From Ghiorsea bivora (GTDB taxonomy: Bacteria > Pseudomonadota > Zetaproteobacteria > Mariprofundales > Mariprofundaceae), in contig NZ_JQLW01000005.1 of assembly GCF_000744415.1 (NCBI RefSeq), positions 224,650 through 288,649 of the forward strand: 64,000 nt of DNA, in the 5' to 3' direction. The notes beneath the pieces are model-generated. The model saw nothing but the letters and a program-made list of their open reading frames with translations, had not been told where the DNA came from and did not search any database. Positions 3,607 to 63,106 of the stretch are shown one piece after another. Position numbers and translations under genes: made by a program. How positions within the stretch are numbered: the first letter of the stretch is position 1; the number at the start of each line of letters is the position of its first letter.

Positions 3607-7078
<3,472 letters not shown>

Positions 7079-7112
7079 TCATTGACCATTCTGTTCATTC
7101 AAATCTTTTTGT

Positions 7113-8174: not shown

Positions 8175-8234
8175 TAGCGATAGTGTAATGGCAGGCGATT
8201 AAAAATATAGTGTAAGAATCCGACTACTTCATTC

Positions 8235-20807: not shown

Positions 20808-23800
20808 ATGGCTGAACAAGAAAATAAAACACAAGAACCCTTAAACATTGCAGGTAAGTTGGGTTTGGTGTCAATGAAGACCAACTTGACCCCGATTATC
20901 AGCATTTTGATTCTATTGATTGGTGTTTTTGCGCTATTTATTACACCGCGTGAAGAAAACCCACAAATTGATGTGCCTGCTGCCAATGTGATTATCCAAA
21001 TGAATGGTGCAAGCCCACAAGAGGTGCAAAACCTTATCGTACACCCTCTGGAAATGGTCTTGCGCGAGATGAGTGGCGTTGACCATACCTATGGTACAGC
21101 CATGGGTAATGTAGGTGTTGTCACTGTTGTATTCGAAGTGGGTGCAGATACAGAAATCAGCATGGTTAAGTTATATGACCGTATCATGCAAAATCTTGAC
21201 CGCATTCCTCCAGGTGCATCCCAACCCTTGGTCAAACCCATGGATGTTAACGAGGTTCCAGCGGCAGTCATTACACTTTCATCCAGCGAGCTTGATGGTC
21301 TAAGCTTAAAACGCCTTGCTGAGCGTGTGCGTGAACAACTAGCGCCGCTAGAAGGTGTATCTGTTGCCGATATTATTGGTGGTCGCGACCATGAAGTTCG
21401 CATTGAAATCGATCCTGCCAAAATGGCTGGTTATAAAATAACTTTAGACCAACTGCATAATGTATTGATGAGCGCTAATACAGGTGGCCCTGTGGGTGAG
21501 CTTGTTGGCAACAACCGCGTAAGCAAAGTTTGGTTATCTGGTTATTTGGAAAACGCACAAGAAGTGGGCGCATTAATTGTAGGTAGCCATGGTGGTAAAC
21601 CTGTTCACCTTCGTGATGTAGCAACCATTATTGATGGCCCTGCTGAAGTCACACATTTGCATCGCATTGCTTATGGTCCTTCTGCAGAGCATGGTACACA
21701 AACTGGTGAAGAGCCTGAAATCAATGCTGTTTCCATCACGCTGGCAAAACAACGTGGTACCAATGCCGTATTCGTTACACAACGTATCATGGATAAATTG
21801 GAAACACTTAAAGGTGACTTTATTCCAAGTAATGTTCGCGTAGATATTACCCGCGACTCGGGTAAAAAAGCCAATGCTGCAGTAAACTATTTGGTAGAGC
21901 ACTTGGTGATTGCCATTGTTTCCGTCATTCTTATTTTATTATTATTCCTTGGATGGCGCGAAGCGGCGATTGTTACAATGAACATTCCGTTGATTTTGTT
22001 TATCGTGTTGGCAATCGGTTTCTTGGCAGACCAAACCATCAACCGTATCACTCTTTTCTCACTCATCCTTGCTTTGGGATTGTTGGTGGATGATGCCATT
22101 GTGGTGATTGAAAATATTCATCGTCACTTGCACAAAGGTGTGAAAGATACCGCTGACAAAATCAAATTGATTGTGCGTGCCACCAATGAAACGGGCAAGC
22201 CAACCATTGTCGCAACCATTGCCGTGATTCTTGCCTTTATTCCTATGGGTTTTGTGACAGGCATGATGGGGCCATTCATGGCACCCATCCCATTCAATGC
22301 ACCGTTGGCAATGGCAGCATCATTAATCATTGCTTATGCCTTTACGCCATGGATTGCACAACGGTTCTTGCCCAATAAAATGGTAGAACCCACCATGGAA
22401 GAACAAGATCATAACCCCAAAGACTGGGTACATAGCACATACATGAAATATGCTACGCCACTGGTTGAGAATGCTAAAGTTCGCCTCATCTTTTGGATAG
22501 TCGTAGCTGCTTTGTTTATGGGTGCAATGCTGCAACCTGCATGGCAATTTATTCGTCCTGCTGGCATCAATGGTCCATTAACAACGGGTGGTGTAGAATT
22601 GAAGATGTTACCCAAAGGCAACCAAAACACCTTTAATATCACCATCGATTTACCCGAAGGTAGCACCATGGAAGAAACCGACCGTGTTGCGCGTGAAATC
22701 GGCAATATCTTGCGCCAACATGAGATGGTTAAAGATTATGAGACCTTTGTGGGTCGTGGTGGCCCTATTGATTTCAATGGTATCTTACGTGGCGCAGCAC
22801 TGTTCCGCGAAGCACCAAACTTGGGTGAAATTCGCGTCAACTTGCGAGACAAACATGAACGCAGTATTCGTTCAGAAGATATTGTGTTGGAATTGCGCGA
22901 AATGTTAGCCCCAGTATTTGCCAAACACCCCTTGGCATCCATTAAACTGGTCGAAGATCCACCAGGTCCACCTGTCCGCGCAACATTATTGGCTGAAATT
23001 TACGGCCCTGATTATGCCAAACAAAAAGAAGTGGCAGCAGAAGTCCGTAAGACCTTTGCCAACACTTATGATGTCGTGGATTTGGATGACTCCATTGGTG
23101 CATCACAAACACAATTTAACATCAAAGTGAACAAAGAAAAAGCTGCACACCTTGGTGTGGTCACACAGCAGGTTGAAGTAGCATTGCGTGACTTCTTATC
23201 TGGCTATAATTTTGGTGCCGTACACATCGAAGATGAACGTCATATCGTGAATCTACACGTACAATTGCCACGCTCCATGCGCGTCAATGCTGAAAATCTG
23301 AATCAGATTTATGTCAGCTCACCACAAGGCCCTGTAGCACTGTCTGCCATTGCTACAGTAGAAGAAAGCACCGTGAAAAACCCTATCTTCAGTAAAGATG
23401 GGCATACGGTAGTCTATGTAACTGCTGAACCTAAACAGGGTTCACAAGTCTATTCTTTGCTCGATATCGATAGTAAAATTGATGGGCAAAAACTAGCAGG
23501 TGTTGAATTAAAAACAGGCGGTATGCGTTTTACGGATACGCCCCCTGAAGACACCTTTGGTTATCATATGCTGTGGGATGGTGAAATGCGCTTAACACTG
23601 GATGTTTTCCGTGACTTGGGTGCTGCATTCATCGTGGCTATGGTCTTAATTTACCTATTAATGGTGGCATATTATGGTCAGTTTATTCTGCCCATGTTGG
23701 TCATGGCACCAACCGCTTTGACCATGATTGGTATTTTCCCTGGTCATGCGATTACAGGGCAACCCTTCACTGCCACATCCATGATTGGTATGATTGCACT

Positions 23801-24104
23801 GGCAGGCATTGTGGTGCGAAACTCTACCCTGCTGATTGATTTCATACTTGAATACCGCAAAAAAGGGTATGACCTCAAAACATCGGTACTTGAAGCAGGT
23901 GCAGTACGTGCCCGCCCCATCCTGCTCACAGCCATTGCCGTGGTCGCTGGTACATCCATCATGATTACCGACCCAGTATTTGGTGGTTTGGGTGTCTCTA
24001 TGGCATTTGGTACCATTGCAGCAACGATTTTAACCTTGTTTGTCACCCCATTGATGTATTATCTATGGCAACGCGGCAAACCCGATCCTGCAGCCAAAGC
24101 CTAA
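20808..24104 (+). CDS. RND efflux permease (AcrB/AcrD/AcrF superfamily)
   Basis: A 1098-residue inner-membrane pump, about 60 residues longer than AcrB. Helix 4 has the aspartate pair in LGLLVDDAIVVIENIHRHL. The N-terminus MAEQENKTQEPLNIAGKLG precedes the first membrane helix and is longer than in AcrB. The C-terminal bundle includes GMIALAGIVVRNSTLLIDFI and RARPILLTAIAVVAG. It ends the operon with a strong terminator at 24126-24156. This longer RND type is common in environmental proteobacteria; its substrate is not predictable. Confidence 0.9.
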   Translation: MAEQENKTQEPLNIAGKLGLVSMKTNLTPIISILILLIGVFALFITPREENPQIDVPAANVIIQMNGASPQEVQNLIVHPLEMVLREMSGVDHTYGTAMGNVGVVTVVFEVGADTEISMVKLYDRIMQNLDRIPPGASQPLVKPMDVNEVPAAVITLSSSELDGLSLKRLAERVREQLAPLEGVSVADIIGGRDHEVRIEIDPAKMAGYKITLDQLHNVLMSANTGGPVGELVGNNRVSKVWLSGYLENAQEVGALIVGSHGGKPVHLRDVATIIDGPAEVTHLHRIAYGPSAEHGTQTGEEPEINAVSITLAKQRGTNAVFVTQRIMDKLETLKGDFIPSNVRVDITRDSGKKANAAVNYLVEHLVIAIVSVILILLLFLGWREAAIVTMNIPLILFIVLAIGFLADQTINRITLFSLILALGLLVDDAIVVIENIHRHLHKGVKDTADKIKLIVRATNETGKPTIVATIAVILAFIPMGFVTGMMGPFMAPIPFNAPLAMAASLIIAYAFTPWIAQRFLPNKMVEPTMEEQDHNPKDWVHSTYMKYATPLVENAKVRLIFWIVVAALFMGAMLQPAWQFIRPAGINGPLTTGGVELKMLPKGNQNTFNITIDLPEGSTMEETDRVAREIGNILRQHEMVKDYETFVGRGGPIDFNGILRGAALFREAPNLGEIRVNLRDKHERSIRSEDIVLELREMLAPVFAKHPLASIKLVEDPPGPPVRATLLAEIYGPDYAKQKEVAAEVRKTFANTYDVVDLDDSIGASQTQFNIKVNKEKAAHLGVVTQQVEVALRDFLSGYNFGAVHIEDERHIVNLHVQLPRSMRVNAENLNQIYVSSPQGPVALSAIATVEESTVKNPIFSKDGHTVVYVTAEPKQGSQVYSLLDIDSKIDGQKLAGVELKTGGMRFTDTPPEDTFGYHMLWDGEMRLTLDVFRDLGAAFIVAMVLIYLLMVAYYGQFILPMLVMAPTALTMIGIFPGHAITGQPFTATSMIGMIALAGIVVRNSTLLIDFILEYRKKGYDLKTSVLEAGAVRARPILLTAIAVVAGTSIMITDPVFGGLGVSMAFGTIAATILTLFVTPLMYYLWQRGKPDPAAKA

Positions 24105-24212: not shown

Positions 24213-24419
24213 ATGCAGAATACTTCAATGCTAATGTGGGGGCTTGTGTTTGGCTCGATTGGCTTCGGTTTTTTCTCTTACGGGCGAAAACAAAAGGCGA
24301 TTGTGCCACTACTCACAGGCATGACGCTGATGGTATTGCCCTACTTTGTTGCCAACCTCTATCTATTGTTGGGTTTAGGCGTGGTTTTACTCGCCATACC
24401 TTATTTTATTCGCTTGTAA
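24213..24419 (+). CDS. small membrane protein, function unknown
   Basis: A 68-residue protein with two predicted membrane helices (MLMWGLVFGSIGFGFFSYG and LLTGMTLMVLPYFVANLYL) followed by a third hydrophobic run near the C-terminus. A GRKQK basic loop lies between the first two. The length and layout resemble small conserved proteobacterial membrane proteins of unknown function. Its last 14 bases overlap the end of the convergent intI gene, so it forms the left border of the integron. No partner suggests a role. Confidence 0.6.
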   Translation: MQNTSMLMWGLVFGSIGFGFFSYGRKQKAIVPLLTGMTLMVLPYFVANLYLLLGLGVVLLAIPYFIRL

Positions 24420-25434
24420 GCGAACCCAGCATATCCAAAGGGCTAACAACCGCACCAAGGTTTTGCTGCAACACATGGGTATAAATTTCTGTAGTTTTCA
24501 CATCGGCGTGTCCAAGAAGCTTTTGTACTACACGGATATTCGTACCCGATTCCAGTAAATGTGTGGCAAACGAATGGCGCAATGTATGCGATGTCACCCG
24601 CTTATTGATGTTAGCTTTTTCTTTTGCCCGCTTAATCGCTTTTTGCAAGTTCGATTGATTCACATGATGGCGGCGAATCTCACCCGTTTCAGGGTCTTTA
24701 GATAAGGTCTTAGAGGGAAAAACAAACTGCCATTCCCATGATTTTGGTGCGTTGGGATATTTTTTTGCCAATGCGCCCGACAACCATACATTGGCAACCC
24801 CCTGCTCAACATCTTGATTAAATAGCTCTCGCACACCTCGCAAATGTGCTTTTAAATCATCGTGTAAAGATGATGCCAATAAAGTGGTTCGATCTTTATC
24901 GCCCTTACCTGCATGAATCGTTAAATAACCATAGTCAAAATCAATATCTTGAACCCGCAACCGAAGCATCTCATTCAAACGCAAACCTCCACCGTACATC
25001 ACACGAGCCATCAACAAGGTTTCACCTTGCATGACAGAAAAAAGACGACTCATTTCTTGTTGACTGAGCACAACAGGTAAACGTGGCGGTCTTTTTGAGC
25101 GAATCGCAGCAATATCATCTGCAAACGGTAAGTGTAAAACGCTTTTATACAAAAACAAAAGTGCATTAAACGCCTGATTTTGTGTCGAAACTGCGACTTT
25201 TCGCTTGACCGCCAAGTGACTTAAATAGGCTTCAGCTTCTGCTTTCCCCATATCTCTAGGATGGCGTTTGTTGTGAAAAAATATGAAGTCTTTAATCCAA
25301 TAAGTATATGCCTCTTCAGTACGCCGCCCATAATGGTAAAAGCGCATCACTTCGCTCACTTGATCCATCAATCGCACCGATTGAGGTTGAAATGTTCGCT
25401 CATTCTTGACCTTGGGTGGATATATCGGCATCAT
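24406..25434 (-). CDS. intI: integron integrase IntI (tyrosine recombinase)
   Basis: A 342-residue tyrosine recombinase. The N-terminal SAM-like domain reads VMRFYHYGRRTEEAYTYWIK. Catalytic boxes are visible: box 1 Arg in YGGGLRLNEMLRLR, box 2 His/Arg in SHTLRHSFATHLLE, LLGHADVKTTEIYTHV with the second His and the nucleophile Tyr. The segment ALAKKYPNAPKSWEWQFVFP between boxes 1 and 2 is the extra domain found in IntI and absent from XerC/XerD; it marks this as an integron integrase. The gene faces away from a cassette array that starts just upstream, the standard integron layout. AGGAG at the start fits either of two adjacent ATGs. Confidence 0.95.
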   Translation of the reverse strand: MMPIYPPKVKNERTFQPQSVRLMDQVSEVMRFYHYGRRTEEAYTYWIKDFIFFHNKRHPRDMGKAEAEAYLSHLAVKRKVAVSTQNQAFNALLFLYKSVLHLPFADDIAAIRSKRPPRLPVVLSQQEMSRLFSVMQGETLLMARVMYGGGLRLNEMLRLRVQDIDFDYGYLTIHAGKGDKDRTTLLASSLHDDLKAHLRGVRELFNQDVEQGVANVWLSGALAKKYPNAPKSWEWQFVFPSKTLSKDPETGEIRRHHVNQSNLQKAIKRAKEKANINKRVTSHTLRHSFATHLLESGTNIRVVQKLLGHADVKTTEIYTHVLQQNLGAVVSPLDMLGSLTSE

Positions 25435-25489
25435 CGCTCCTATTCCTCTTTTAAGGCTTAATATGCAATAAAGTGGAAAGGATGTCCAC

Positions 25490-25542
25490 CTATAGGAGTT
25501 AATAATGAGGAACTTTGATTACTCCTATTCGGTTAGTTATGT
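25490..25542 (+). other. attI primary recombination site
   Basis: The spacer upstream of intI ends in GTTATGT at 25536-25542, matching the GTTRRRY-type core, and the following bases TTATGTGTAAAAAG also begin cassette 3 at 26788. This places the crossover at the G/TT step, 25536/25537. The spacer also has AGGAGT/ACTCCT arms (25495-25526) that may be integrase-binding repeats. A weak promoter-like pair, TTGATT at 25515 and TATGTG at 25538 (17-bp spacing), might drive the cassettes. The attI limits to the left are not certain. Confidence 0.65.
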
Positions 25543-25567
25543 GTAAAAAGCGAAAAAGGATATGCAA

Positions 25568-26116
25568 ATGTTGAAATTTGTTTTTGGTATGTTCATAGGC
25601 GCATTAATATCTATATGTTATTTTATATTGTCACCTGAGTTTGATTTTGATAGCAACTTATCAGTTAATTTTATTATCGCTTTTGCGACATGCACAGCTA
25701 CAGCTATACATTTTGACTCTATTAAGAAACAACGAAGAGATAGAATATGGGATATCAACAAATCAATCCTATTAGATTTAACGCATGCACTATCAGAAGT
25801 TATAAAAGAAACTGAATTGGCAATAGACGATGAGCTTGACTACAAATCCCCGCCCAGAGAAAACAGGGGGCATGTATTTAGAAGCTTGGAAGAAAAAATT
25901 GATTACGCCCTAAATGTCTACAAACCTTTAATGAATACTGAGTTAGCCAATAATCTTAAAGATCATAAAGCATTTAGCGACAAAATTACTGAAGAAGTTA
26001 ATTATGCTCATCTAGATCACATAGATGCTTATGAAGCCATGTTAAAAGAATATAAGAGCCTATACGGGAAATTAATTAATTTTATTGCGAGTATTTCTGG
26101 TGTTAAAAACACATAA
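25568..26116 (+). CDS. integron cassette 1: membrane-anchored protein, function unknown
   Basis: A 182-residue protein with two N-terminal hydrophobic helices (LKFVFGMFIGALISICYFIL and VNFIIAFATCTATAIHF) and a charged, mostly helical cytoplasmic or periplasmic remainder (SIKKQRRDRIWDINKSILL, then a Glu/Lys-rich region). I recognise no domain. The ATG at 25568 is preferred to the one at 25562 because AAAGGA at 25555 is then spaced correctly. The stop TAA is part of the attC R'' box. Being nearest attI, it is probably the most recently captured and best expressed cassette. Confidence 0.75.
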   Translation: MLKFVFGMFIGALISICYFILSPEFDFDSNLSVNFIIAFATCTATAIHFDSIKKQRRDRIWDINKSILLDLTHALSEVIKETELAIDDELDYKSPPRENRGHVFRSLEEKIDYALNVYKPLMNTELANNLKDHKAFSDKITEEVNYAHLDHIDAYEAMLKEYKSLYGKLINFIASISGVKNT

Positions 26117-26189
26117 CAATGCGCTGCAGTTGACCTCGCAATACGCCGCTTCGCTCTGTATTGCGGTCAACTGAGCTTAAGCGTTAGCT
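26111..26189 (+). other. attC site 1
   Basis: A 79-bp hairpin-forming site. The R'' box ACATAAC is at 26111 and the R' box GTTAGCT at 26183. The arms CAGTTGACC(T)CGCAATAC and GTATTGCGGTCAACTG pair almost perfectly, with one extra T as a bulge, as expected for a folded single-strand attC. It belongs to the same sequence family as attC site 3. Confidence 0.9.
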
Positions 26190-26202
26190 TTCTAGGATAA
26201 GC

Positions 26203-26736
26203 ATGGAACCTATCTGGATTGATAAAATAGAAGTTGCAGAAAGGCAGATTGCCGAAGCAGTAAAGCTGTTTTTTGAAAAAAGAGACCTTGTTGTTATCCA
26301 TACGGTAATTGCATCTGCTCACCAAGTGTTAATTGATGTTGGTAAAGAACAAAAAATTAACAGTGCTATTAAAAACCCAAAGGGGTTAACACGACAACAG
26401 TACAGGCAACATATCAAATCAATTAATGTTCCTTACAATTTTTTCAAACATGCTGATAATGACCCAAATGGAAAGCTAAATATTGCTCCCATAGAGCGTT
26501 TTACATCAGATTTCATTCTTGATGCAATACTAATGCTTCAGAGGATATCAGGAAATATTCCTTTAGAGGCTAAAGTATTCTGGGGATGGTTTGTTGCTAC
26601 ATACCCTGATGAGTTTGATGATTGTCCAAACAACGGTGCAATTAAAAATATGATGGAGATGGGTTTGGCAGATTGGGATTTTCCAACAATTCATCAATTT
26701 CTTATATTTGGAGAAATTTTGTATGAAAAAAGCTAA
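26203..26736 (+). CDS. integron cassette 2: soluble protein, function unknown
   Basis: A 177-residue, mostly helical soluble protein without signal peptide. A stretch with VPYNFFKHADNDPNGKLNI near residue 75 resembles a motif I have seen in hypothetical proteins of integron arrays, but no function is known to me. The ATG at 26203 follows the attC R' box by 14 bases and starts MEPIWIDKIEV. The stop lies in the next attC R'' box. Base composition is AT-rich, unlike the housekeeping genes of the window. Confidence 0.75.
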   Translation: MEPIWIDKIEVAERQIAEAVKLFFEKRDLVVIHTVIASAHQVLIDVGKEQKINSAIKNPKGLTRQQYRQHIKSINVPYNFFKHADNDPNGKLNIAPIERFTSDFILDAILMLQRISGNIPLEAKVFWGWFVATYPDEFDDCPNNGAIKNMMEMGLADWDFPTIHQFLIFGEILYEKS

Positions 26737-26794
26737 CCAAAGCATCGAGAGGGACGCTCGCTGCGCTCCTGCCCCTCATGCAGGTCGTTATGTG
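26731..26794 (+). other. attC site 2
   Basis: A 64-bp site. The R''-like AGCTAAC is at 26731 and the R'-like GTTATGT at 26788. The arms GCATCGAGAGGGAC and GCCCCTCATGC pair imperfectly around a loop with GCTCGCTGCGCTC. It belongs to the same family as sites 4 and 5. Confidence 0.85.
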
Positions 26795-26810
26795 TAAAAA
26801 GAAATAAAAC

Positions 26811-27248
26811 ATGATTAAACAATTACAGGATGTACTACACACAGAAATTCCATTAACAAAGCATATTGGCTTGTCTGTCGTTAAACATACGGAGCTATCA
26901 TTAACTTTAAGTGCGCCATTAGAAAAGAACATCAATCATAAATGCACGGCATTTGGTGGCAGCATTTACTCAGTATCCGTTTTATCTGGCTGGGGTCTAA
27001 TATATTTACTGCTAAAACAACATAATTTATCAGGCCACATTGTCATTCAGGAAAGCAATACAAAGTTCAGCAAACCAGTTAACTCTGATATAACGGCTAC
27101 ATGCTCTTTCATATCTATTCGCCAATGTGATAAATTCATCAATATGTACAAAAGAAAAGGCGTAGCAAGAATAAAGCTAGTATCTAAAATATCTTGCAAT
27201 AGTGAAAATGCGGTAACATTTAATGGCACCTATGTTGTACACACATAA
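26811..27248 (+). CDS. integron cassette 3: YiiD C-terminal-type thioesterase (hotdog fold)
   Basis: A 145-residue protein resembling the thioesterase domain found at the C-terminus of YiiD. It has IPLTKHIGLSVVKHTELSL, then NINHKCTAFGGSIYSVSVLSGW, where the hotdog active-site helix begins with N-H/G-T-x-F-G-G-S. Later segments include GHIVIQESNTKFSKPVNSDI. It would hydrolyse acyl thioesters, most likely acyl-CoA or acyl-ACP. The acyl substrate is not known. The leader TTATGTGTAAAAAG is shared with the attI-proximal end of cassette 1. The stop lies in the next attC R'' box. Confidence 0.75.
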   Translation: MIKQLQDVLHTEIPLTKHIGLSVVKHTELSLTLSAPLEKNINHKCTAFGGSIYSVSVLSGWGLIYLLLKQHNLSGHIVIQESNTKFSKPVNSDITATCSFISIRQCDKFINMYKRKGVARIKLVSKISCNSENAVTFNGTYVVHT

Positions 27249-27331
27249 CAATACGCTGCAGTTGACCTCGCAATACGCCGTTTCGCTTCGCTACACTCTG
27301 TATCGCGGTCAACTGAGCTAGGTCGTTAGGC
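27243..27331 (+). other. attC site 3
   Basis: An 89-bp site. The R'' box ACATAAC is at 27243 and the R' box GTTAGGC at 27325. The stem sequence is nearly identical to attC site 1 (GCAGTTGACCTCGCAATACGC ... GCGGTCAACTG), with a longer loop TTTCGCTTCGCTACACT. Confidence 0.9.
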
Positions 27332-27337
27332 AAACAA

Positions 27338-27871
27338 ATGGAAAATATGAATATATCATTTCAGATAACCTGTAAAAACATAACTCAATTTATCGAGCAC
27401 TGGTCATCTAAATATATTTACTCTAATGAGCAAAAATATGACGATAATGTTGGTAAGCCTCTTACAGCCGAATCAAGGTTAGAATTATTTGAGTGGAAAA
27501 ATGGTTCAGTTATTTCAGCTAAAAAAATCGAAAGTATAAATAAAAACTATCCTTTAATTTTTGAAGGAAGCCAAGAAGAAAGATATTTAAATCACAAAAA
27601 ATCTGGCGGGGCAATCTGGAATATTTTTTACATACATTGCCTAAACCCAACCCAATGGCCAATTTACGACCAACATACATTTAGAGCCATGAAATATATG
27701 AAAACAGGTGAAATTACTGAAATAGGAAATACAAATAAACAAAAATATGAAAGCTATATAAATGAATATATTCCATTTATTGAGTCTTTTAATAATATAA
27801 ATCATCGAAAATTAGATATGGCTCTATTTGCATTTGGCCAATTTCTTAAAATAGCAAAAAAATATGCCTAA
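27338..27871 (+). CDS. integron cassette 4: soluble protein, function unknown
   Basis: A 177-residue protein, AT-rich and Lys/Asn-rich. The middle contains GGAIWNIFYIHCLNP and WPIYDQHTFRAMKYM. A similar WxIFxxH...YPIxDQHVYRA pattern appears in proteins annotated with a DNA-glycosylase-like (OGG) helix-hairpin-helix fold. I recall that only loosely, so the link is weak. No signal peptide or membrane segment. The ATG at 27338 is 6 bases after the R' box. The stop lies in the next attC R'' box. Confidence 0.7.
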   Translation: MENMNISFQITCKNITQFIEHWSSKYIYSNEQKYDDNVGKPLTAESRLELFEWKNGSVISAKKIESINKNYPLIFEGSQEERYLNHKKSGGAIWNIFYIHCLNPTQWPIYDQHTFRAMKYMKTGEITEIGNTNKQKYESYINEYIPFIESFNNINHRKLDMALFAFGQFLKIAKKYA

Positions 27872-27926
27872 CCAAAGCATCGAGAGGGACATAGCTTCGC
27901 TCTGCCCCTCATGCAGGTCGTTAGGG
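27866..27926 (+). other. attC site 4
   Basis: A 61-bp site. The R'' box GCCTAAC is at 27866, a perfect RYYYAAC, and the R' box GTTAGGG is at 27920. The arms GCATCGAGAGGGAC / GCCCCTCATGC are the same as in sites 2 and 5, with a shorter loop (ATAGCTTCGCTCT). Confidence 0.9.
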
Positions 27927-27946
27927 CTCTATGAGGAGGAATTGAA

Positions 27947-28336
27947 GTGTCACAAGTAAAAATATTTGGAATCAAAGAGAGTTTGAACCCAATCAAGAAA
28001 GAGTTATCTGATGTTATTCATGAGTGTGTTGTTGAAGCCCTTCATTTTCCTCAAGATAAAAGAGCGCACAGATTCTTTCCTCTTGAAAAAGAAAACATGT
28101 TTTACCCCAGTGGTAGAACAGATGCCTATACCATTATTGAAATTACAATGATTGAAGGTAGAGAAACAGAAACAAAGAAAAAGTTAATTAGCCTTTTATT
28201 TGATAGAATTCAAGAAAAAATCGGCATCACTCATCAAGATATTGAAATCTGCATTTATGAATCGCCAGCCTGTAATTGGGGCTTTCGTGGTATGCATGGT
28301 GATGAAGTGAAGTTAAATTATAAAATCAATGTCTAA
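27947..28336 (+). CDS. integron cassette 5: tautomerase-family protein
   Basis: A 129-residue protein resembling the Tautomerase_2 family of small enzymes related to 4-oxalocrotonate tautomerase. Visible are VKIFGIKESLNPIKKELSDV, YPSGRTDAYTIIEITMIEGR and YESPACNWGFRGMHGDE. The catalytic Pro that follows Met in classic tautomerases is missing; residue 2 is Ser. Either it uses another nucleophile or it is a non-catalytic relative. The start is GTG with a strong AGGAGGAA upstream, the best ribosome site in the array. Its stop (28334-28336) lies just before, not inside, the attC. Confidence 0.75.
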   Translation: MSQVKIFGIKESLNPIKKELSDVIHECVVEALHFPQDKRAHRFFPLEKENMFYPSGRTDAYTIIEITMIEGRETETKKKLISLLFDRIQEKIGITHQDIEICIYESPACNWGFRGMHGDEVKLNYKINV

Positions 28337-28339
28337 AAG

Positions 28340-28402
28340 CCATAACAAAAGCATCGAGAGGGACGCTCGCTGCGCTCGCGCCCCTCATGCAGGTCGTTAT
28401 AT
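28340..28402 (+). other. attC site 5
   Basis: A 63-bp site. The R''-like CCATAAC is at 28340 and the R'-like GTTATAT at 28396. The arms GCATCGAGAGGGAC / GCCCCTCATGC match sites 2 and 4. The loop GCTCGCTGCGCTCGC is nearly identical to that in site 2. Confidence 0.87.
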
Positions 28403-28405
28403 GCC

Positions 28406-28954
28406 ATGAAATGTTTCACACTCGATTCAAACTGCATCATCGATTTAGAAGAAAATCGACCAGATGCTATCCACCTAGAAGAGTTAAAAACATTATGGCA
28501 GTCTGGAAAAATTGAAATTGGTGTCGTTTCCGTAAGCGCTTCTGAGAATCAACCATCTGGTGAATCTATGCACAATTATGCAGAGTTTGAGGCCAAATTA
28601 ACCCGTGCAGGTCTATCAAATGCACGTGAATTAGCGCCCATTGGAATATGGGATTTTGGCTATTGGGATCATATGCTATGGTCTAGTGATGAATCTGAAG
28701 CCCAGCTTAAAGAAATAAAAGATATTCTTTTCCCGCAATCACAATATGACCCGCCAGACGACTTTAGCACTAATAGTAAATGGCGTAACCAGACATGTGA
28801 TGCGCTAGTAGCCTGGTCGCACAATTTTCATAAATCTGACCATCTTGTAACCAGGGATAATAATTTTCATAAAAAAGCTCAGCCTTTAATAAAGTTTGGT
28901 ATTAAGAGCATTGTTACTCCCGAGGAGGCAGTATCAATTGCAAAAAGCATATAA
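28406..28954 (+). CDS. integron cassette 6: PIN-domain-like protein (putative ribonuclease)
   Basis: A 182-residue protein with PIN-like acidic motifs. FTLDSNCIIDLEE at the start supplies the first Asp. CDALVAWSHNFHKSDHLVTRDNNFHKKA near residues 130-155 supplies the second acidic cluster (D in TCDALV, D in VTRDNNF). PIN proteins are Mg-dependent ribonucleases, often toxins. No antitoxin gene precedes it, and the start codon lies 4 bases after the R' box of the preceding attC, so it is not a normal toxin-antitoxin pair. The stop lies in the next R''-like box. Confidence 0.72.
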   Translation: MKCFTLDSNCIIDLEENRPDAIHLEELKTLWQSGKIEIGVVSVSASENQPSGESMHNYAEFEAKLTRAGLSNARELAPIGIWDFGYWDHMLWSSDESEAQLKEIKDILFPQSQYDPPDDFSTNSKWRNQTCDALVAWSHNFHKSDHLVTRDNNFHKKAQPLIKFGIKSIVTPEEAVSIAKSI

Positions 28955-29009
28955 CAAATCGTCCAACCCGACCTTTTTATACGCCGTTTCGCTTCGCTAC
29001 GGAATAAAA
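28949..29009 (+). other. partial attC site 6, interrupted by the transposase element
   Basis: The left half of an attC of a third sequence type. ATATAAC at 28949 is the R'' box, followed by CCAACCCGACCTTTTTAT, a loop CGCCGTTTCGCTTCGC, then AATAAAAG. The arms CCTTTTTAT / AATAAAAG(G) still pair. The expected right arm, mirroring CCAACCCGACC and ending in GTTRRRY, is replaced by the inverted-repeat end of the Y1 transposase element at 29010. The array therefore ends here. Confidence 0.65.
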
Positions 29010-29566
29010 GGGGTCAGGTCTTGTTTCGCGCATTCTTGACGTTATACTTGCGCCATGGCTAGACCTCTCCGAATCGAATACGAAGGCGCAGTGTATCATG
29101 TGACATCGCGCGGCAATGCACGGTCTGATATTTATTTTTCAGATGCTGACCGTGAGATATTTCTTGATGTGCTTACACATGTAGTTGAGCGATTCGATTG
29201 GGTTTGCCATGCTTATTGCCTAATGAGCAATCACTATCACCTAATGATTGAAACCCCCAAAGCCAACCTTAGCCGAGGTATGTGGAATAAAAGGGGTCAG
29301 GTCTTGTTTCGCGCATTCTTGACGTTATACTTGCCCCATGGCTAGACCTCTCCGAATCGAATACGAAGGCGCAGTGTATCATGTGACATCGCGCGGCAAT
29401 GCACAGACTGATATTTATTTATCAGATGCTGACCGTGATATATTTCTTGATGTGCTTACACATGTAGTTGAGCGATTCGATTGGGTTTGCCATGCTTATT
29501 GCCTGATGAGCAATCACTATCACCTGATGATTGAAACCCCCAAAGCCAACCTTAGCCGAGGCATGC
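29001..29566 (+). repeat. 283-bp tandem direct duplication at the 5' end of the transposase element
   Basis: 29001-29283 and 29284-29566 align at a constant offset of 283 bp from GGAATAAAA to CGAGG(T/C)ATG, with only a handful of differences (for example GCACGGTCTG versus GCACAGACTG). A tandem duplication of this segment accounts for the truncated first transposase gene and for GGAATAAAA preceding both copies. The differences show it is not a very recent event or that two variants recombined. Confidence 0.85.
29055..29345 (+). pseudogene. truncated Y1 (REP-associated tyrosine) transposase copy
   Basis: The first 76 codons match the complete gene at 29338 almost exactly (start MARPLRIEYEGAVYHVTSRG). 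The HUH metal-binding motif HYHLMIE is present, but the copy breaks off after NLSRGM and continues in the duplicated upstream sequence to a stop at 29345. The catalytic tyrosine and C-terminal helix-turn-helix are missing, so it should be inactive. Its 3' end overlaps the start of the intact gene by 8 bases. Confidence 0.85.
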
Positions 29567-30178
29567 GCCAGCTTAATGGGATGTACACCCAAAGGTTTAA
29601 TCGGGCACATCATCGTATCGGCCATGTGTTTCAGGGTCGGTTTAAGTCTATTATCGTGGATAAAGATGCATATTTACTTGAATTAAGCAGGTATATTGTA
29701 CGTAATCCTGTTGCCGCAAATATGGTTAATTCCGTAAGTGATTGGCCTTGGAGCAGCTATAACGCTACGGCAGGCATAGAAAAAAAACCTGCTTTCTTAA
29801 CTGTAAACTGGCTACTTTCCCAGTTTGGTGGTGATAGAGAAGCATATAAACGGTTTGTGAATCAATCTGAAGTCGTGATACCTTGGAAATCATTGAATGG
29901 GCCTGATTTGCTGGGCGATGATGCCTTTAGACAGAGGTTACAAGCATTCAAAAGTGAACCTGATCAGAATATACCCAAACGCAAACAAACGCTGCGGCAT
30001 TTGCCATTGGCTGAACTTGCAGCGCAAGAGAAAACACGTGGTGAATGGATGCGGAAAGCTTATCAGGAGCATGGCTATACGATGCAATCCATCGCAGATT
30101 TTGCAGGCTTACACCATTCTACAGTAAGCCGGCTTATCAAACAGCAAGATGAAAATGCGCGAAACAAGACCTGACCCC
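29293..30178 (+). mobile_element. Y1/HUH transposase element with 22-bp perfect terminal inverted repeats
   Basis: The outer left end 29293-29314 (begins GGGGTCAGGTCTTG) and the right end 30157-30178 (ends AAGACCTGACCCC) are exact reverse complements over 22 bases. A second left end is at 29010-29031 in the truncated copy. The element holds one transposase gene nearly filling it (886 bp). IS200/IS605-type and REP-associated elements normally have subterminal hairpins rather than perfect ends. No target duplication is seen, as expected for single-strand transposition. Confidence 0.8.
29338..30174 (+). CDS. REP-associated tyrosine transposase (Y1 HUH nuclease)
   Basis: A 278-residue single-strand transposase. 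The HUH motif is in CLMSNHYHLMIET (about residue 65). The catalytic Tyr is in LSRYIVRNPVAANMV (about residue 115). The C-terminus has a helix-turn-helix, YTMQSIADFAGLHHSTVSRLI, found in the longer RAYT-type family. It should nick and rejoin single-stranded DNA at the element ends. The ATG at 29338 is the same start as in the truncated copy at 29055. The last codons lie inside the right inverted repeat. Confidence 0.92.
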   Translation: MARPLRIEYEGAVYHVTSRGNAQTDIYLSDADRDIFLDVLTHVVERFDWVCHAYCLMSNHYHLMIETPKANLSRGMRQLNGMYTQRFNRAHHRIGHVFQGRFKSIIVDKDAYLLELSRYIVRNPVAANMVNSVSDWPWSSYNATAGIEKKPAFLTVNWLLSQFGGDREAYKRFVNQSEVVIPWKSLNGPDLLGDDAFRQRLQAFKSEPDQNIPKRKQTLRHLPLAELAAQEKTRGEWMRKAYQEHGYTMQSIADFAGLHHSTVSRLIKQQDENARNKT

Positions 30179-30196
30179 AAACACAAACACACAATC

Positions 30197-30790
30197 ATGC
30201 AAATATTATTTTTACTGGTTCTTATATACCCGCTTCAATTAAATGCTGAACCAAAGGTCTACGAAACAATTGAAGAATATAGCGTTATTTCTAAGAGTGT
30301 TGATAACTTACTTTCTAATCTCAATAAGGCTTCCCCAATTCGGCAACATGGTAGTATTTATCATGCTTACACAGATACTTATGTAGAATGGAATTACAAG
30401 TGGCGTAACCAAAAAGGCAGTTGCAAACTTAACCGCGTAGAAACTACAGTTCGTATTACTTATACGCTCCCACACCTTCTAAAAACTTCTTCAAGCAGGC
30501 AAGCTTTAAATATCTGGAATTCATATTACCCAGCCCTTGTTTTGCATGAAAAAGGGCACGGCACAATTGCTATCAATGCCGCAAAACAAATCGAAAAAAC
30601 ATTACTTGGGCTACCCATATATACCAATTGCGATTCTTTAAACCGAGAAGCAAACCTAAAAGCACATGATATTTTAGCACGATTTAGGCTTAAACAGGCG
30701 AATTATGATACAAGAACTGAGCACGGTAAAACACAAGGTGCAAATCTAGAATTATACTTATATAGAAAGCCTACTAAAAACACGAAGTAG
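30197..30790 (+). CDS. DUF922-family secreted putative zinc protease
   Basis: A 197-residue protein with a signal peptide (MQILFLLVLIYPLQLNA, cleaved before EPKVYE). The HExxH-like motif LHEKGHGTIAIN near the middle is characteristic of the DUF922 family, thought to be zinc-dependent peptidases. An upstream W-rich segment (TYVEWNYKWRNQKGSCKLNRV) and a disulfide-capable pair of Cys are present. The frame is open back to 30149 inside the transposase gene, but the ATG at 30197 gives the proper signal peptide. It lies just outside the right end of the mobile element and has no attC after it. Confidence 0.75.
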   Translation: MQILFLLVLIYPLQLNAEPKVYETIEEYSVISKSVDNLLSNLNKASPIRQHGSIYHAYTDTYVEWNYKWRNQKGSCKLNRVETTVRITYTLPHLLKTSSSRQALNIWNSYYPALVLHEKGHGTIAINAAKQIEKTLLGLPIYTNCDSLNREANLKAHDILARFRLKQANYDTRTEHGKTQGANLELYLYRKPTKNTK

Positions 30791-30843: not shown

Positions 30844-32208
30844 TTAATCATGTGATGCTTCTTTAAAGAGGTGGTCTATATTTTGGTTCCACTCATTTCG
30901 GTATAAACGCAGCCATTTATCCGCTTGGGTTTCGCCTGATTTCACCACATCAAACAACGGCAATAAATATTGTGCCTCACATCTTCCCTGCTCATCACAA
31001 ATATCAAGGTTGTTTAACCCTTGTTTTGCCATATTAAGTATAGTTTCAGCATAAAAATGTACATTTTTATCTAAAAAAGGTGTTTTTAGGGCTGTTTTTG
31101 GAACATTTTCCATCAAATCAACGACTTCCTCATGTTTCCAGCCTTTTACCATGTCCCAAGCCTGGTTCAATGTAGGCTCATCATAAAGCAGACCTTTCCA
31201 CAATGCAGGCAATGCTGAAATCCAGTCCCAGCCGCCTGCATCCGCACCACGTACTTCAATAAATTGCTTTAAGCGCACTTCGGGGAATGTAGTACTCACA
31301 TGCAATTCCCAGTCGGCATGGGTGGGGTATTCACCAGGTAACATAGGTAACTTACCTTCCAAGAAGTCACGAAAGGATTCACCCGTGCAATCAATATATT
31401 CCGCATCTCTAAGCACAAAATACATAGGCACATCAAGCACCCATTCTGTCCATGATTCAAAACCAAAATCATCCTCAAACACACACTTGGGAATGCCTGT
31501 ACGGTTGGGGTCGGTATCTAACCAACAGTCGGCGCGGGTAGACAATAAGCCCGATGGTTTACCATCTTTAAAAGGTGATGCCGCAAACATAGCGGTTACC
31601 ATAGGCTGCAAGCAATAAGCCACGCGCATCTTTTTCGCCATATCTGTTTCGGATTCAAAATCCAAATTGGCTTGGGTTGTTGCGGTGCGCAACATCATGT
31701 CCAAACCTTTGTTGCCCACTTTAACCATGTATTCGCGCATCACATTGTATCGCGCCTTGGGCATCCACGGAATATCACCGCGTTTCCACTTGGGCTGAAA
31801 ACCAAGCGCCAAGAAGCCAATCTCTAATTCCTTATTAAGCTGGCGCAACAAATCAAAATGGTGACCCACTTCATCATGTGTTTCATGAATCGTTGCCAGT
31901 GGCGCACCCGATAACTCCAGTTGCCCACCTGGTTCAAGAGTGATGGAAGCTAAACCATGTTTAAGCGCAATCGGATTGCCATTTTCAAGCACCGCAAGCC
32001 ATTGTTCATCATGGTTCCAGTCGGCTAAACGCTCCAGCAAATGTTGAATGCTTTTTTCACCAAAATACGGAATAGGACGCAATGTTTGCGTACAATACCC
32101 AACTTTTTCATGCTCTGTACCAATCTTCCAAGCTTCTCTTGGTTTATTGCCACGGCGAAAATAATCAGCCAATTCTTCTCGATAAATGCGCTTATGTTCC
32201 AAAATCAT
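30844..32208 (-). CDS. gshA: glutamate--cysteine ligase, plant/alphaproteobacterial type
   Basis: First step of glutathione synthesis. At 454 residues it is the length of the GCS2 (plant-type) family, not the E. coli type. Conserved segments include WKIGTEHEKVGY, SITLEPGGQLELSGAP, MPKARYNVMREYM, ATTQANLDFESETDM and HVSTTFPEVRLKQFIEVRGAD. It is a single gene, divergent from the NusG-II gene 37 bases away; gshB is not adjacent. Glutathione would also supply the glutaredoxin-type arsenate reductase at 43702. Confidence 0.93.
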   Translation of the reverse strand: MILEHKRIYREELADYFRRGNKPREAWKIGTEHEKVGYCTQTLRPIPYFGEKSIQHLLERLADWNHDEQWLAVLENGNPIALKHGLASITLEPGGQLELSGAPLATIHETHDEVGHHFDLLRQLNKELEIGFLALGFQPKWKRGDIPWMPKARYNVMREYMVKVGNKGLDMMLRTATTQANLDFESETDMAKKMRVAYCLQPMVTAMFAASPFKDGKPSGLLSTRADCWLDTDPNRTGIPKCVFEDDFGFESWTEWVLDVPMYFVLRDAEYIDCTGESFRDFLEGKLPMLPGEYPTHADWELHVSTTFPEVRLKQFIEVRGADAGGWDWISALPALWKGLLYDEPTLNQAWDMVKGWKHEEVVDLMENVPKTALKTPFLDKNVHFYAETILNMAKQGLNNLDICDEQGRCEAQYLLPLFDVVKSGETQADKWLRLYRNEWNQNIDHLFKEASHD

Positions 32209-38921: not shown

Positions 38922-39608
38922 CTATTTTTGGGGCCACCAACCTTGTTCTTGGAAGGACAATACTTGTGTACCCGCCAATAAAAAATGGTCCAAAAGTTTG
39001 ATGTCTAACGTATTACAAGCTTCAATCAATTGCCTTGTTAATGCAATATCTTGTTCACTGGCTAAAGCTGTGCCTGCTGGATGGTTATGAAAAATAATTA
39101 ATCCTTTGGCATCCAACTCCAAAGCGCGTTTAATCAAAGTACGGGGATACACCACTGCTCTATCAACCGTGCCTTCAAACAGTATTTCAGTAGAAATACA
39201 CTGGTTTTGTTGATCGGTAAACAGCGCACCAAAATATTCAATACTTTTTTCTTGAAGTTTAAGGCGCAACCAAGCTTTAACTGTTTCAGGTGAGTCTAGC
39301 TTAGGTTTTGATGCCAGTTCCGATTCAAGGTAACGCACTTGCGCTGCTTTCAAGAGTTTTAAGAGCTGCGCAGATTCTTTACCCAAACCTTCAACCGTTT
39401 GCAACTCTTGAACCTGTGCATCAAACACACCCGCTAAAGTTTGAAATTGTACCATCAATCGCTTGGCAACGGGTTTTACATCTTTGCGCGGAATTGCATA
39501 CGTCAGCAGCAATTCCAACACTTCATATTCATGGAACCCATCAAGACCATGCTCGGTAAAACGCTGTTTTAACCGAGCTCTATGCCCTTGAACAGACTTA
39601 TCTACCAA
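38922..39608 (-). CDS. radC: RadC-family JAB1/MPN-domain protein
   Basis: A 228-residue protein. The N-terminal helix-hairpin-helix-like part (YEVLELLLTYAIPRKDVKP, LQTVEGLGKESAQLLK) precedes the JAMM metalloprotease-like domain with the zinc motif IFHNHPAGTALASEQD, where the His-x-His and Asp ligands are present. Despite its name a repair role is not established; it may be a JAMM isopeptidase-like enzyme. It starts one base after the glyS stop, so they share a transcript. Confidence 0.93.
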   Translation of the reverse strand: MVDKSVQGHRARLKQRFTEHGLDGFHEYEVLELLLTYAIPRKDVKPVAKRLMVQFQTLAGVFDAQVQELQTVEGLGKESAQLLKLLKAAQVRYLESELASKPKLDSPETVKAWLRLKLQEKSIEYFGALFTDQQNQCISTEILFEGTVDRAVVYPRTLIKRALELDAKGLIIFHNHPAGTALASEQDIALTRQLIEACNTLDIKLLDHFLLAGTQVLSFQEQGWWPQK

Positions 39609-41690
39609 TCAGGCAAGCCTCGATACATCCGCAAGGCGCAAAAACAAGCCTCGCAAACGCGATAACAACGCCAAACGATTGACTTTAATCGCATCATCAT
39701 CCGCCATCACCATTACACCATCAAAGAAGGCATCCACAGGCTCTCGTAAGCCTGCCAACACTTGAAGTTGAGCCTCTGCATCATCGGGGAAGTTACTCTC
39801 AGCTTTCTGCAATGCTGAGAACAACGCTTTTTCCACATCTTCCACAAGTAATGATTCATCAATATCACTGCTCACATCACCTGCTTTTTTCAGAATGTTG
39901 GCAATGCGTTTATTCGCTGCCGCCACAGCCTGCCCCGCTTCGGAATCGGCAAAACCTGTTAACAAGCGCGCCACCTGCAAATGTTTATGCAGTGGCAAAG
40001 CTAGGTTTGCACCCAATGCCGCATCACATGCAGGTTTGGTCACATCAAAACCATCAGATAAACCCAAGAAACGCTCATGAATAAAGGACAGCACTGCCGC
40101 TTGTGTTTCATCACTAATCGTAATCGTCACACGCTGTTGATTCCATTGCTTGGAAGCTTCCTGCAACACCTCTTGCAAGGTCATATCAACCGGATTGGTT
40201 TCATCTGCCAACAAGCGCACAAGACCAATGGCTGCACGACGCAAAGCAAACGGGTCAGCACTCGCAGTTGGGATTTTACCCAAGTGGAAATAACCCAACA
40301 ATTTATCTGCGCGTTCCACCACAGCAATCGCTTTGGCAATCGACGAAGTCGGCAAGTCATCATCTGCACCTGCGGGGGCATAATGTTGACTAATCGCTTC
40401 AGCAACTTCTTTATTTTCACCATCCATTTCGGCGTAAATGCCGCCCATATAACCTTGAAGTTCAGGAAACTCACCCACCAAGCCAGTAGTTAAATCGGAT
40501 TTACACAAGTATGCAGCGCGTTGCGTATCATTGGCATCGACACCCAGCTTATCTGCATTATCAAGTACAAAACCACGCAAACGACGTACTTGGTCACCCA
40601 CCATACCTAAGCCATCTTGGAACACAATTTCCGATAGTTTTTCTACACGTGATTCTAAGCTTTCTTTGGGGTCACGCTCAAAGAAAAACATAGCATCAGC
40701 AAGGCGTGCATTGACCACGCGCTCATTACCATGCGCCACCATAGCAGGGTCATTGGATTTGATGTTTGCTACAGCAAAGAATACATTGGATGTATTACCA
40801 TCCTTATCTTTGGTTGAGAAGCAGCGTTGATGATGTTTCAGCTCAATGCGGCTCACTTCAATCGGCAAAGCGAGGAATTTCTCTTCATATTTGCCTGTAA
40901 TCACATGCGGCCATTCGGTTAAGTCGGTGACTTCTTCAACCAAAGCATCATCTTCGACCAAAGCCACACCTACAGCTTTGGCTGCATTGTTCAAACCTTG
41001 CACAATACTTGCTTTGCGCGCATCTCTATCGGCAATCACCATGCGCTCTTCTAACCACGCAAATGGATCTGTTACACTGATGTCACCCTTGGCATCTTTA
41101 CACATGCGATGGGCATAGGATTGTTTGCCTGCTTGGATACCAGCAAAGGAAAAGTCCAACACATCATCACCCAATCGCGCCACAATCCAACGGATGGGGC
41201 GAATAAAACTATCGCCTCGGCTCTCACCATCTTGCCATTGCATTTGTTTGGGGCTTGGCAATCCGCGCAAGATTGCAGGCATGGCTTCAGCAATAATATC
41301 AATCGTTTTGCGCCCTTTCACGGTGATAACCGCTTTCATATATTTGGCTTTACCATCACCTTTATCGGTAAATTCAAAGTCAGATACACTTAAACCCGAT
41401 TTACGGGCAAATCCTTCTGCTGCTTTGCTTGGCTCGCCATCTTTGAGCGCGATATTTTCAGGCGGCCCCCAAATCACTTGCTCGCTGTCGGCTTGCATGG
41501 TTGGGCACGCTGCAACATGAATCAACAAACGGCGCGGGGTCACCCCCAAACGCAGATCCGACACATCTAAATTCGCATCGTTAAACAATTTCACCAACGC
41601 AGCTTGAAGTGCGCTGCCCATACGAGGTGCAACACCTGCGGGGATTTCTTCCACACCAATTTCAATCAATAGTGGTTTCAAATCACTCAT
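39609..41690 (-). CDS. glyS: glycyl-tRNA synthetase beta subunit
   Basis: Beta subunit of the heterotetrameric bacterial glycyl-tRNA synthetase, 693 residues (E. coli 689). It has the start [18 protein letters not shown], the HD-like middle ([17 protein letters not shown]), and a C-terminal anticodon-binding DALR-like region ([22 protein letters not shown]). It overlaps glyQ by 4 bases, as in most proteobacteria. Housekeeping gene. Confidence 0.96.
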
Positions 41691-42544
41691 GATTCCACCC
41701 CCGCATACCCTTGGGCAACGGTGCGTGATAATCCACGAACACGCCCAATAAAGCGTTGCCGCTCAGCCACCGAAATCGCGCCCCTTGCATCCAACAAGTT
41801 AAAGGCATGAGATGCTTTAATCACTTCTTCGTAGGCAGGTAAAAACAAGTTATTTTCTGCCAGCTTTTTGCAATCGCCTTCAGCTTGGTCAAATTGCTGT
41901 TGTAAAAATTCAATGTTGGCATGTTCAAAGTTATACGCTGAAAATTCCTGCTCATTACGTAAAAACACTTCGCCATAGGTCACTTGCTTGCCATCAGGCT
42001 GCTCCACCCAAATCAGGTCATACACATTTTCTACGCCTTGGATATACATCGCCAAGCGTTCCAAGCCATAAGTAATCTCGCCTGGGGTGCGCGGTAATTC
42101 AACGCCACCCACCTGTTGAAAATAGGTAAACTGAGTTACTTCCATGCCGTTAAGCCAAACTTCCCAACCCAAACCCCATGCGCCAAGTGTTGGCGATTCC
42201 CAATCATCTTCAACAAAACGAATATCGTGAACATCAGTATCAATGCCGATTTCACGCAAAGATGCCAAATACAAATCCAAAATATCATCAGGTGCAGGTT
42301 TTAGAATCACCTGAAATTGATAATAATGTTGTAAGCGGTTGGGGTTTTCACCATAGCGCCCATCGGTTGGGCGGCGGCACGGCTGCACATAAGCCGTGCG
42401 CCAATCTTTATCATCCAACACCCTCAAAAAGGTGGATGGGTGGAATGTGCCAGCACCCATAGAGCTATCATAAGGCTGCTGAACCACGCAGCCCTGCTTT
42501 GCCCAAAAGTGTTGCAATGTCAGCAATAAATCTTGAAATGTCAC
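41687..42544 (-). CDS. glyQ: glycyl-tRNA synthetase alpha subunit
   Basis: Catalytic alpha subunit, 285 residues (E. coli 303). Class II motifs are seen in [33 protein letters not shown], and [20 protein letters not shown]. It precedes glyS with a 4-base overlap. The upstream 203-bp spacer carries a short reading frame that looks like a remnant. Confidence 0.96.
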
Positions 42545-42747
42545 GGTAAAAACTCCGATGCCTAGCTTAAAACAATAATCTTTCTTGCTCGAACTATATC
42601 GACATCAGTTTTTTCGTCATTACAAACTTGGCACAGATTGCATTTATGCGTTTAGTCTTGCATGATATGCCTATGAATATTGAATTAACAGGGCATAAAC
42701 CCTTACGCTCTGCAAATCATGAGCAAATGCAAAAGAGACTATCATAG

Positions 42748-62945: not shown

Positions 62946-62979
62946 GCTAGCTAAGTCGAGAGGTCTTGTGAACAATTTA

Positions 62980-63062
62980 GACTGAGGAGCACTGCGCCGA
63001 TGTTGTTTTATCATAAAATAACATCGTTAGGCTCAGTCGTTTGAATAAAAACAACGGTGCTC
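62980..63062 (+). promoter_or_regulatory. SAH riboswitch upstream of ahcY
   Basis: The SAH aptamer family is recognised by GAGGAGCACTGC, GGCTC and CAACGGTGCTC. P1: GACTGAG (62980-62986) with CTCAGTC (63032-63038). P2: CGATGTT (62998-63004) with AACATCG (63020-63026). The pseudoknot/P4 pairs GAGCAC (62987-62992) with GTGCTC (63057-63062). It lies 45 bases before the ahcY start. SAH riboswitches in proteobacteria turn on SAH-recycling genes when SAH builds up. A small ATCAC-GAAA-GTGAT hairpin at 63073-63086, just before the ribosome site, may be the expression platform. Confidence 0.88.
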
Positions 63063-63106
63063 ATATTTTTATATCACGAAAGTGATGCTTTTATAGGAGT
63101 ATGAGA

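Follow-up and report, generated by a model that had tools for sequence, protein, structure and literature searches.

A small chromosomal integron of Ghiorsea bivora holds two interleaved attC families with different lineage distributions

We describe an integron in a 64,000 nt stretch of the genome of Ghiorsea bivora, a zetaproteobacterium of the family Mariprofundaceae (contig NZ_JQLW01000005.1, positions 224,650 to 288,649; hereafter the window, to whose numbering all coordinates refer unless stated otherwise). The intact integron occupies positions 24406–28402 and is composed of the integrase gene intI, an attI region and five complete attC sites of two unrelated families, A and B, in the order A-B-A-B-B, with half of a sixth attC lying beyond it (Table 1); the six cassettes are upstream of intI and read away from it, the last one being damaged. 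Family B has its relatives in Mariprofundaceae, while the nearest whole-site relatives of the family A sites are from gammaproteobacteria. From these data we consider it probable that this small chromosomal integron, which is carried on a 424 kb contig of a 2.15 Mb genome, acquired its cassettes singly, from two pools or more, with an integrase that accepts unrelated attC hairpins.

Two attC families in one short array

The attC sites were located with a scan for TAAC and GTT boxes in which both L-box arms also had to pair with each other. The five complete sites scored from −13.9 to −20.1, and in the remainder of the window, scanned on both strands, there was no site at −13 or better; 57 kb of it (114 kb for both strands) gave a single match at −12. 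Sites A1 and A3 share the stem GCAGTTGACC...GGTCAACTG, and sites B2, B4 and B5 share the stem GCATCGAGAGGG...CCCCTCATGC. Identity of the L-box arms was 0.86 between A1 and A3 and 0.84–0.93 among the three B sites, with a mean of 0.88 within families; between families it was 0.45–0.52, with a mean of 0.50, against a mean of 0.48 and a 99th percentile of 0.66 for a shuffled null. Of the 10 possible 2/3 splits, the one setting sites 1 and 3 apart from 2, 4 and 5 also gave the best result by arm identity, and whole-site identities agreed (0.81 within A, 0.86–0.94 within B and 0.48–0.52 between them). A first-pass annotation of this DNA had proposed precisely these two interleaved families at positions 26111–28402; both the interval and the grouping were confirmed, and the similarity between families was that of shuffled arms rather than that found within each family.

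When the bottom strands were folded as single DNA strands, A1 (z −3.9) and B4 (z −3.0) were clearly more stable than shuffled sequences, and A3 (z −1.2), B2 (z −1.0) and B5 (z −1.6) were no more stable than these. Four of the five sites adopted an attC-like fold on their own and B2 preferred a different one. The predicted folds show a single extra-helical base in the A sites and a three-base bulge in B4 and B5.

Table 1. Position and supporting evidence of the integron components and of adjacent features in the window (ORF, open reading frame).
Feature	Window positions	Strand	Evidence
RND efflux permease (platform flank)	20808–24104	+	PF00873, 499.5 bits
intI, integron integrase, full length, 342 aa	24406–25434	−	NCBIfam TIGR02249, 450.1 bits (cut-off 265)
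attI region (predicted), two CTCCTATTC motifs read by eye, crossover G^TT at 25536/25537	25436–25540	+	alignment with eight other platforms
Cassette 1, ORF 25562–26116, 184 aa, family A attC	25537–26183	+	no Pfam/NCBIfam match
attC A1	26111–26189	+	scan, fold, arm identity, cassette boundary
Cassette 2, ORF 26203–26736, 177 aa, family B attC	26184–26787	+	no Pfam/NCBIfam match
attC B2	26731–26793	+	scan, arm identity
Cassette 3, YiiD_C-type thioesterase ORF 26811–27248, family A attC	26788–27325	+	Pfam PF09500, 161.8 bits
attC A3	27243–27331	+	scan, arm identity, cassette boundary
Cassette 4, ORF 27338–27871, 177 aa, family B attC	27326–27920	+	no Pfam/NCBIfam match
attC B4	27866–27926	+	scan, fold, arm identity
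Cassette 5, tautomerase ORF 27947–28336, family B attC	27921–28396	+	Pfam PF14552, 87.6 bits
attC B5	28340–28402	+	scan, arm identity, cassette boundary
Cassette 6, 3′ end lost, ORF 28406–28954, 182 aa	28397–29000	+	no Pfam/NCBIfam match
5′ half of attC 6, arm unlike A and B	28949–29000	+	22 loop bases (28979–29000) identical to A3
REP-associated Y1 transposase element: truncated copy 29001–29282, longer copy from 29284, ORF 29338–30174	29001–30180	+	NCBIfam NF047646, 83.6 bits (cut-off 80)
Glutamate–cysteine ligase (platform flank)	30844–32208	−	TIGR01436, 570.7 bits

Cassettes and their ends

Once cassettes are integrated, the R′ box on the right of an attC is part of the cassette that follows. 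Of 11 positions, the lead of every cassette paired at 8 or 9 with its own R′′ box (9 in the damaged cassette 6), for a total of 51 of 66, and at 5–7 with the R′′ box of its neighbor. A sum of 51 was reached by two of the 720 possible assignments of leads to attC sites: the true one and one in which cassettes 1 and 3, whose leads are identical, are exchanged. Additionally, the ORFs of cassette 6 and of all but one of the five complete cassettes have their stop codon within the R′′ box, in its TAAC. The pairing of each lead with its own end, together with the position of the ORF ends, indicates that each cassette arrived or moved as a unit, whichever its attC family, and that the units between the attC sites are true cassettes. 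Cassettes 1 and 3 (starting at 25537 and 26788) begin with the same 14-base lead, TTATGTGTAAAAAG, despite carrying different ORFs, which perhaps reflects a scaffold common to both since cassette formation.

Four of the six cassette genes belong to no known family in Pfam or NCBIfam, and no resistance gene was found with these databases among the named ones. PADLOC returned a single weak match, to cassette 6 (E 0.006), which was not used.

Distribution of the two families

Families A and B were searched for with the patterns CAGTTGACC...GGTCAACTGAG and ATCGAGAGGGAC...GCCCCTCAT, respectively, in 398 genomes of the phylum, 78 from the class and 320 from outside of it, and in a non-random sample of 28 gammaproteobacterial genomes, comprising 16 chosen by similarity to the integrase IntI and 12 family members of one genome bearing an A site. 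Family B occurred in 10 of the 78 genomes of the class, all of them Mariprofundaceae from three genera and one with 35 copies (G007), and in none of the 320 phylum genomes outside the class or of the 28 gammaproteobacterial genomes. Family A was found in two of the 78, both from the genus of the window, and in none of the 320, as well as in three of the 16 IntI-bearing genomes from outside the class (two Cycloclasticus and one Thiotrichaceae, the latter with two copies) and in three of 18 from the Cycloclasticus family, which combined amount to four of the 28 gammaproteobacterial genomes.

Whole-site comparisons, from which the site of Cycloclasticus G403 was left out for its degenerate R′′ box, placed A1 nearest to a Cycloclasticus site (0.88), followed by A3 (0.81) and the other Ghiorsea sites (0.80 and 0.72), and A3 nearest to a Thiotrichaceae site (0.86), followed by A1 (0.81) and both other Ghiorsea sites (0.65 each). 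With the arms alone, A1 was still closer to a gammaproteobacterial site (0.86 vs. 0.80), and the B sites reached 0.93–0.95 in other genomes of the same family and 0.68–0.70 elsewhere. The annotation had suggested looking for separate clusters with relatives in different lineages, and this is the pattern that we observed. Sharing of attC sites across classes is not limited to family A: the two sites of a Mariprofundus metagenome-assembled genome (MAG; L013) have counterparts in a Cycloclasticus symbiont (identity 0.98) and in a Methylophaga MAG (0.95). Sites A3 and B5 had no match in 72,556 plasmid records. The A pattern matched 21 viral contigs, and none of these matches was an attC on inspection.

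attC diversity in related arrays

We surveyed 43 of 80 IntI loci, picked by eye for having DNA on the array side, counting only minus-strand sites of up to 125 nt and a score of −12.5 or better. At least one site was detected in 34 of the 43, although single sites may be false, with one false site at −12 in 114 kb scanned, and sites that are weak or damaged escape detection, as happened with the A site of L040. Ten loci had at least two sites and the window makes the eleventh array. At an identity threshold of 0.70, 10 of these 11 integrase-linked arrays contained two or more attC types, and in seven of them every site was a type of its own; the proportion of mixed arrays was 8/11 at a threshold of 0.60 and 10/11 from 0.66 to 0.80. 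The sole uniform array (L027) consists of two sites of one type, and the window, with a mean pairwise attC identity of 0.65, ranks second among the 11 in uniformity. Genome G007, in contrast, is rich in sites of the B supertype, with a single cluster formed by three of its four integrase-less contigs.

The mixed array is thus real but ordinary among the related integrons compared. The annotation had reasoned that sedentary arrays usually hold one dominant attC type and that this array was built from more than one source; the latter is supported by the lineage bias of the two families, but the rarity implied by the former is not, with 10 of the 11 arrays compared being mixed. As far as the excerpts of these articles go, a dominant type does match the published expectation of conserved attC sites in sedentary arrays (PMC8618304), but attC homogeneity is also described as varying between taxa, and attC sites as clustering by environment (PMC8352920). 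An excerpt of PMC1382264 describes attC sites as varying from one vibrio to another, with greater likeness among close relatives.

Integrase, attI and location of the platform

The attI region was aligned for nine platforms, including a decayed copy from the same genome, with a mean column identity of 64%, and its function as attI is predicted from this alignment; its 3′ end coincides with the G^TT of cassette 1 as defined by the cassette-boundary analysis. The IntI protein is 91% identical to that of a Ghiorsea MAG (L012), 85% to that of a Mariprofundus MAG and 81% to that of a second Ghiorsea MAG (L015). The contigs of the two Ghiorsea MAGs were found again, through the coordinates of their integrases, in genomes assigned to the genus of the window.

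The platform of L015 occupies the same locus as in the window, with the gene order RND permease, intI, cassettes and glutamate–cysteine ligase, and with a similar attI. The permease next to intI is 92% identical at the protein level, and the ligase, at the far end of the array, is 90% identical over 154 aa. Its array contains two ORFs different from those of the window, one of which matches DnaJ below the Pfam cut-off, and a single detected attC of different sequence. The platform of L012, with the most similar integrase, is at another locus and lacks the RND permease as a neighbor; its neighbors there (region L012:1405-6766) correspond to genes found in the window at 38924–42628, about 14 kb from the integron, which we take to be glycyl-tRNA synthetase genes. 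Eight further loci of the class have in common with four stretches of this genome, one of them the window, only the integrase and the attI region, scattered weak matches aside and among the matches listed. The contig of the window also carries, at a distance of about 98 kb, a second platform in decay (L009:8361-10262), with intI in pieces and interrupted by stops, an attI like the intact one, and one cassette, presumably PfpI-like, with one detected attC that belongs neither to A nor to B. Therefore, several loci harbor platforms in the genus, with different cassettes at the only locus in common, and either platforms or integrase genes seem to change place among its members.

A DUF922 protein (PF06037) is encoded at 30149–30790, between the transposase element and the platform flank; it had no match in the L015 locus and no attC was found downstream of its gene. 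The only Rfam match in the window at the gathering score was a SAH riboswitch (62978–63069, 45.6 bits; gathering score 37), which is unrelated to the integron.

The damaged sixth site

Cassette 6 keeps its lead and the 5′ half of its attC, whereas the 3′ half is replaced, from about position 29001, by the transposase element associated with repetitive extragenic palindromic (REP) sequences. The two copies of this element form a 97% direct repeat with inverted ends GGGGTCAGGTCTTGTTTCGCGC, an exact pattern that matched the genome three times, always within 29001–30180. The first-pass annotation had counted site 6 as a third attC type within the 26111–28402 array. The site is actually outside that interval, and its arm does differ from those of A and B, but only a half-site is left and 22 bases of its loop equal those of A3, so that it represents a third type just in part.

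Elements of the REP-type Y1 transposase, or their ends, abut or interrupt attC sites both in the window and in genome G020, and transposase matches were found close to the outer attC sites in L083 and L133 (regions L113:100-180, L083:1-330 and L133:712-1857). Possibly, attC hairpins or array ends are favored targets of these elements; the arrays L077 and L084 have such transposase genes and showed no attC beside them.

attC sites on virus-labelled contigs

Contig L163 (IMGVR_UViG_3300013233_000191) contains, at 5471–9029, a phage early region, with genes for an anti-repressor, Erf, a RecE-like exonuclease and the single-stranded DNA-binding protein SSB, and, after it, 12 attC-like sites that represent several types and include one of family B (6227–6281). 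Seven of the 12 pass the scan and all seven score better on the minus strand, against phage genes on the plus strand, the other five pairing weakly. A plus-strand ORF of 67–113 aa stops inside the R′ box in nine of the 12 sites, and minus-strand ORFs of at least 60 aa stop in the usual box in two. The ends between sites match each other at 77 of 88 positions, a value that was reached in none of 20,000 permutations. No match to the window integrase was found in this record. These phage-borne cassettes with reversed genes look unusual: according to an excerpt of PMC9892861, two phage arrays are in the usual orientation and a further one has divergent attC sites. Additionally, the scan detected three to six attC sites in each of the G+C-rich virus-labelled contigs L201, L203, L205, L162 and L167, and an integron integrase with 52% identity to that of the window is encoded in the record from which L203 comes.

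Origin of the mixed array

We favor, as the probable origin of this array, the stepwise uptake of cassettes from at least two pools. The integrase would recognize the folded bottom strands of attC sites, whatever their sequence, and circular cassettes would be inserted at attI from whichever pool was at hand, later shuffling aside. One pool would be typical of the host's own family, Mariprofundaceae, and provide family B cassettes, and the other would be shared with marine gammaproteobacteria, such as Cycloclasticus and Thiotrichaceae, and provide those of family A. This would imply that one integrase recombines both families, and we infer that cassettes may have been transferred horizontally, as well as the direction of that transfer.

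The main alternative, which we consider unlikely though well worth weighing, is that both families are native: cassette formation in Ghiorsea would yield several attC types, with the likeness to gammaproteobacterial sites being due to shared ancestry or to convergence of hairpins. Its best argument is that cassettes 1 and 3 have in common both the lead TTATGTGTAAAAAG and the attC; A sites also exist in two other genomes of the genus, one recognized by a looser match alone, and some taxa may generate variable attC sites, according to an excerpt of PMC8352920. Nevertheless, the nearest relatives of A1 and A3 by whole-site identity are in Cycloclasticus and Thiotrichaceae, above the Ghiorsea sites, which is the strongest evidence against native families, and the loop sequence outside the L-box arms is also shared with gammaproteobacterial sites. 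It is far less probable that two single-type arrays merged, for instance with the second platform of this same genome; the decayed platform lies on the same contig and platform loci differ among Ghiorsea, but the one attC of that platform is neither A nor B and the A-B-A-B-B alternation is unlike a fusion of blocks. Finally, there is hardly any likelihood that the repeats are chance palindromes or transcription terminators instead of attC sites: hairpins often occur between genes, and the bottom strands of A3, B2 and B5 do not exceed shuffled sequences in stability, but the R boxes, the G^TT boundary, the intact integrase with its attI, the matching cassette ends and the lack of any equally scoring site elsewhere in the window all argue for attC sites.

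Several observations weigh against uptake from separate pools. The 14-base lead of cassettes 1 and 3 hints at one scaffold instead of separate arrivals, and a looser A site is present in G027, which also belongs to the genus. The 320 phylum genomes outside the class, few of which need carry integrons, lack family A just as they lack B, and two of the 16 genomes chosen by IntI were picked after an A site had already been seen. The comparison of the class with the 28 gammaproteobacterial genomes yielded Fisher p-values of 0.04 for A and 0.06 for B on a sample that is not random. The identity of 0.65 between A3 and the Ghiorsea sites comes partly from the shorter loops of the latter two sites, one site being itself damaged, and by arms alone A3 is equally close to zetaproteobacterial and gammaproteobacterial sites (0.75). 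Plasmid relatives of the proteins of cassettes 1, 2, 3 and 6 are just 25–41% identical among the matches listed, and are uninformative about the source. The platform, moreover, is not fixed, and the most similar integrase, that of L012, is at a different locus. Lastly, the B core pattern is also found on 11 virus-labelled contigs, 10 of them with a G+C content of 0.53–0.63; in those inspected, the outer arms differ from those of family B. Family B is thus a Mariprofundaceae type among the genomes searched, although not exclusively.

Arrays of sedentary integrons contain tens of cassettes or more, whereas the window holds six. As in sedentary chromosomal integrons of the Vibrio superintegron type, integrase, attI and array are here on a chromosome-sized contig and most cassette genes are of no known family; unlike in them, the cassettes are few and the locus is not the same in all relatives. 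The attC sequences of the two families are also unrelated (0.50) instead of conserved, a contrast that rests on published accounts (PMC8618304, in excerpt), and sites that are not mostly alike were found in the window and in nine of the 10 other arrays. The array resembles those of mobile class 1 integrons in being short and with mixed attC sites, which have been read as a sign of several sources (PMC8618304, in the same excerpt). It differs from these in its 424 kb contig, with one relative at the same locus, and in the lack of a visible transposon or plasmid context, although no search for transposon ends was made. Family A also recalls the environment-linked attC clusters of Ghaly et al. 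(2021; PMC8352920), which, in the part of that article considered, include attC types common to unrelated marine hosts; the eleven taxon models described there do not include Zetaproteobacteria. Our literature search retrieved no paper mentioning both Ghiorsea and integron, and none on zetaproteobacterial integrons among the titles listed.

A more speculative extension of the uptake from two pools, which we put forward only tentatively and hold to be rather improbable, is that the array is the meeting point of two cassette economies: family A would represent a marine pool that crosses between Gammaproteobacteria and Zetaproteobacteria, and family B a Mariprofundaceae pool that also travels on phages. 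If this were true, phages such as that of L163 would be a vehicle feeding this chromosomal integron.

A single attC type per array is not a good default assumption for the set of marine chromosomal integrons that we compared. The attC families can serve to trace the origin of cassettes, with a type typical of the family and a type shared across classes standing side by side in a two-megabase genome. Likewise, families A and B are a natural pair of substrates for asking how broad the attC range of a single integrase is.

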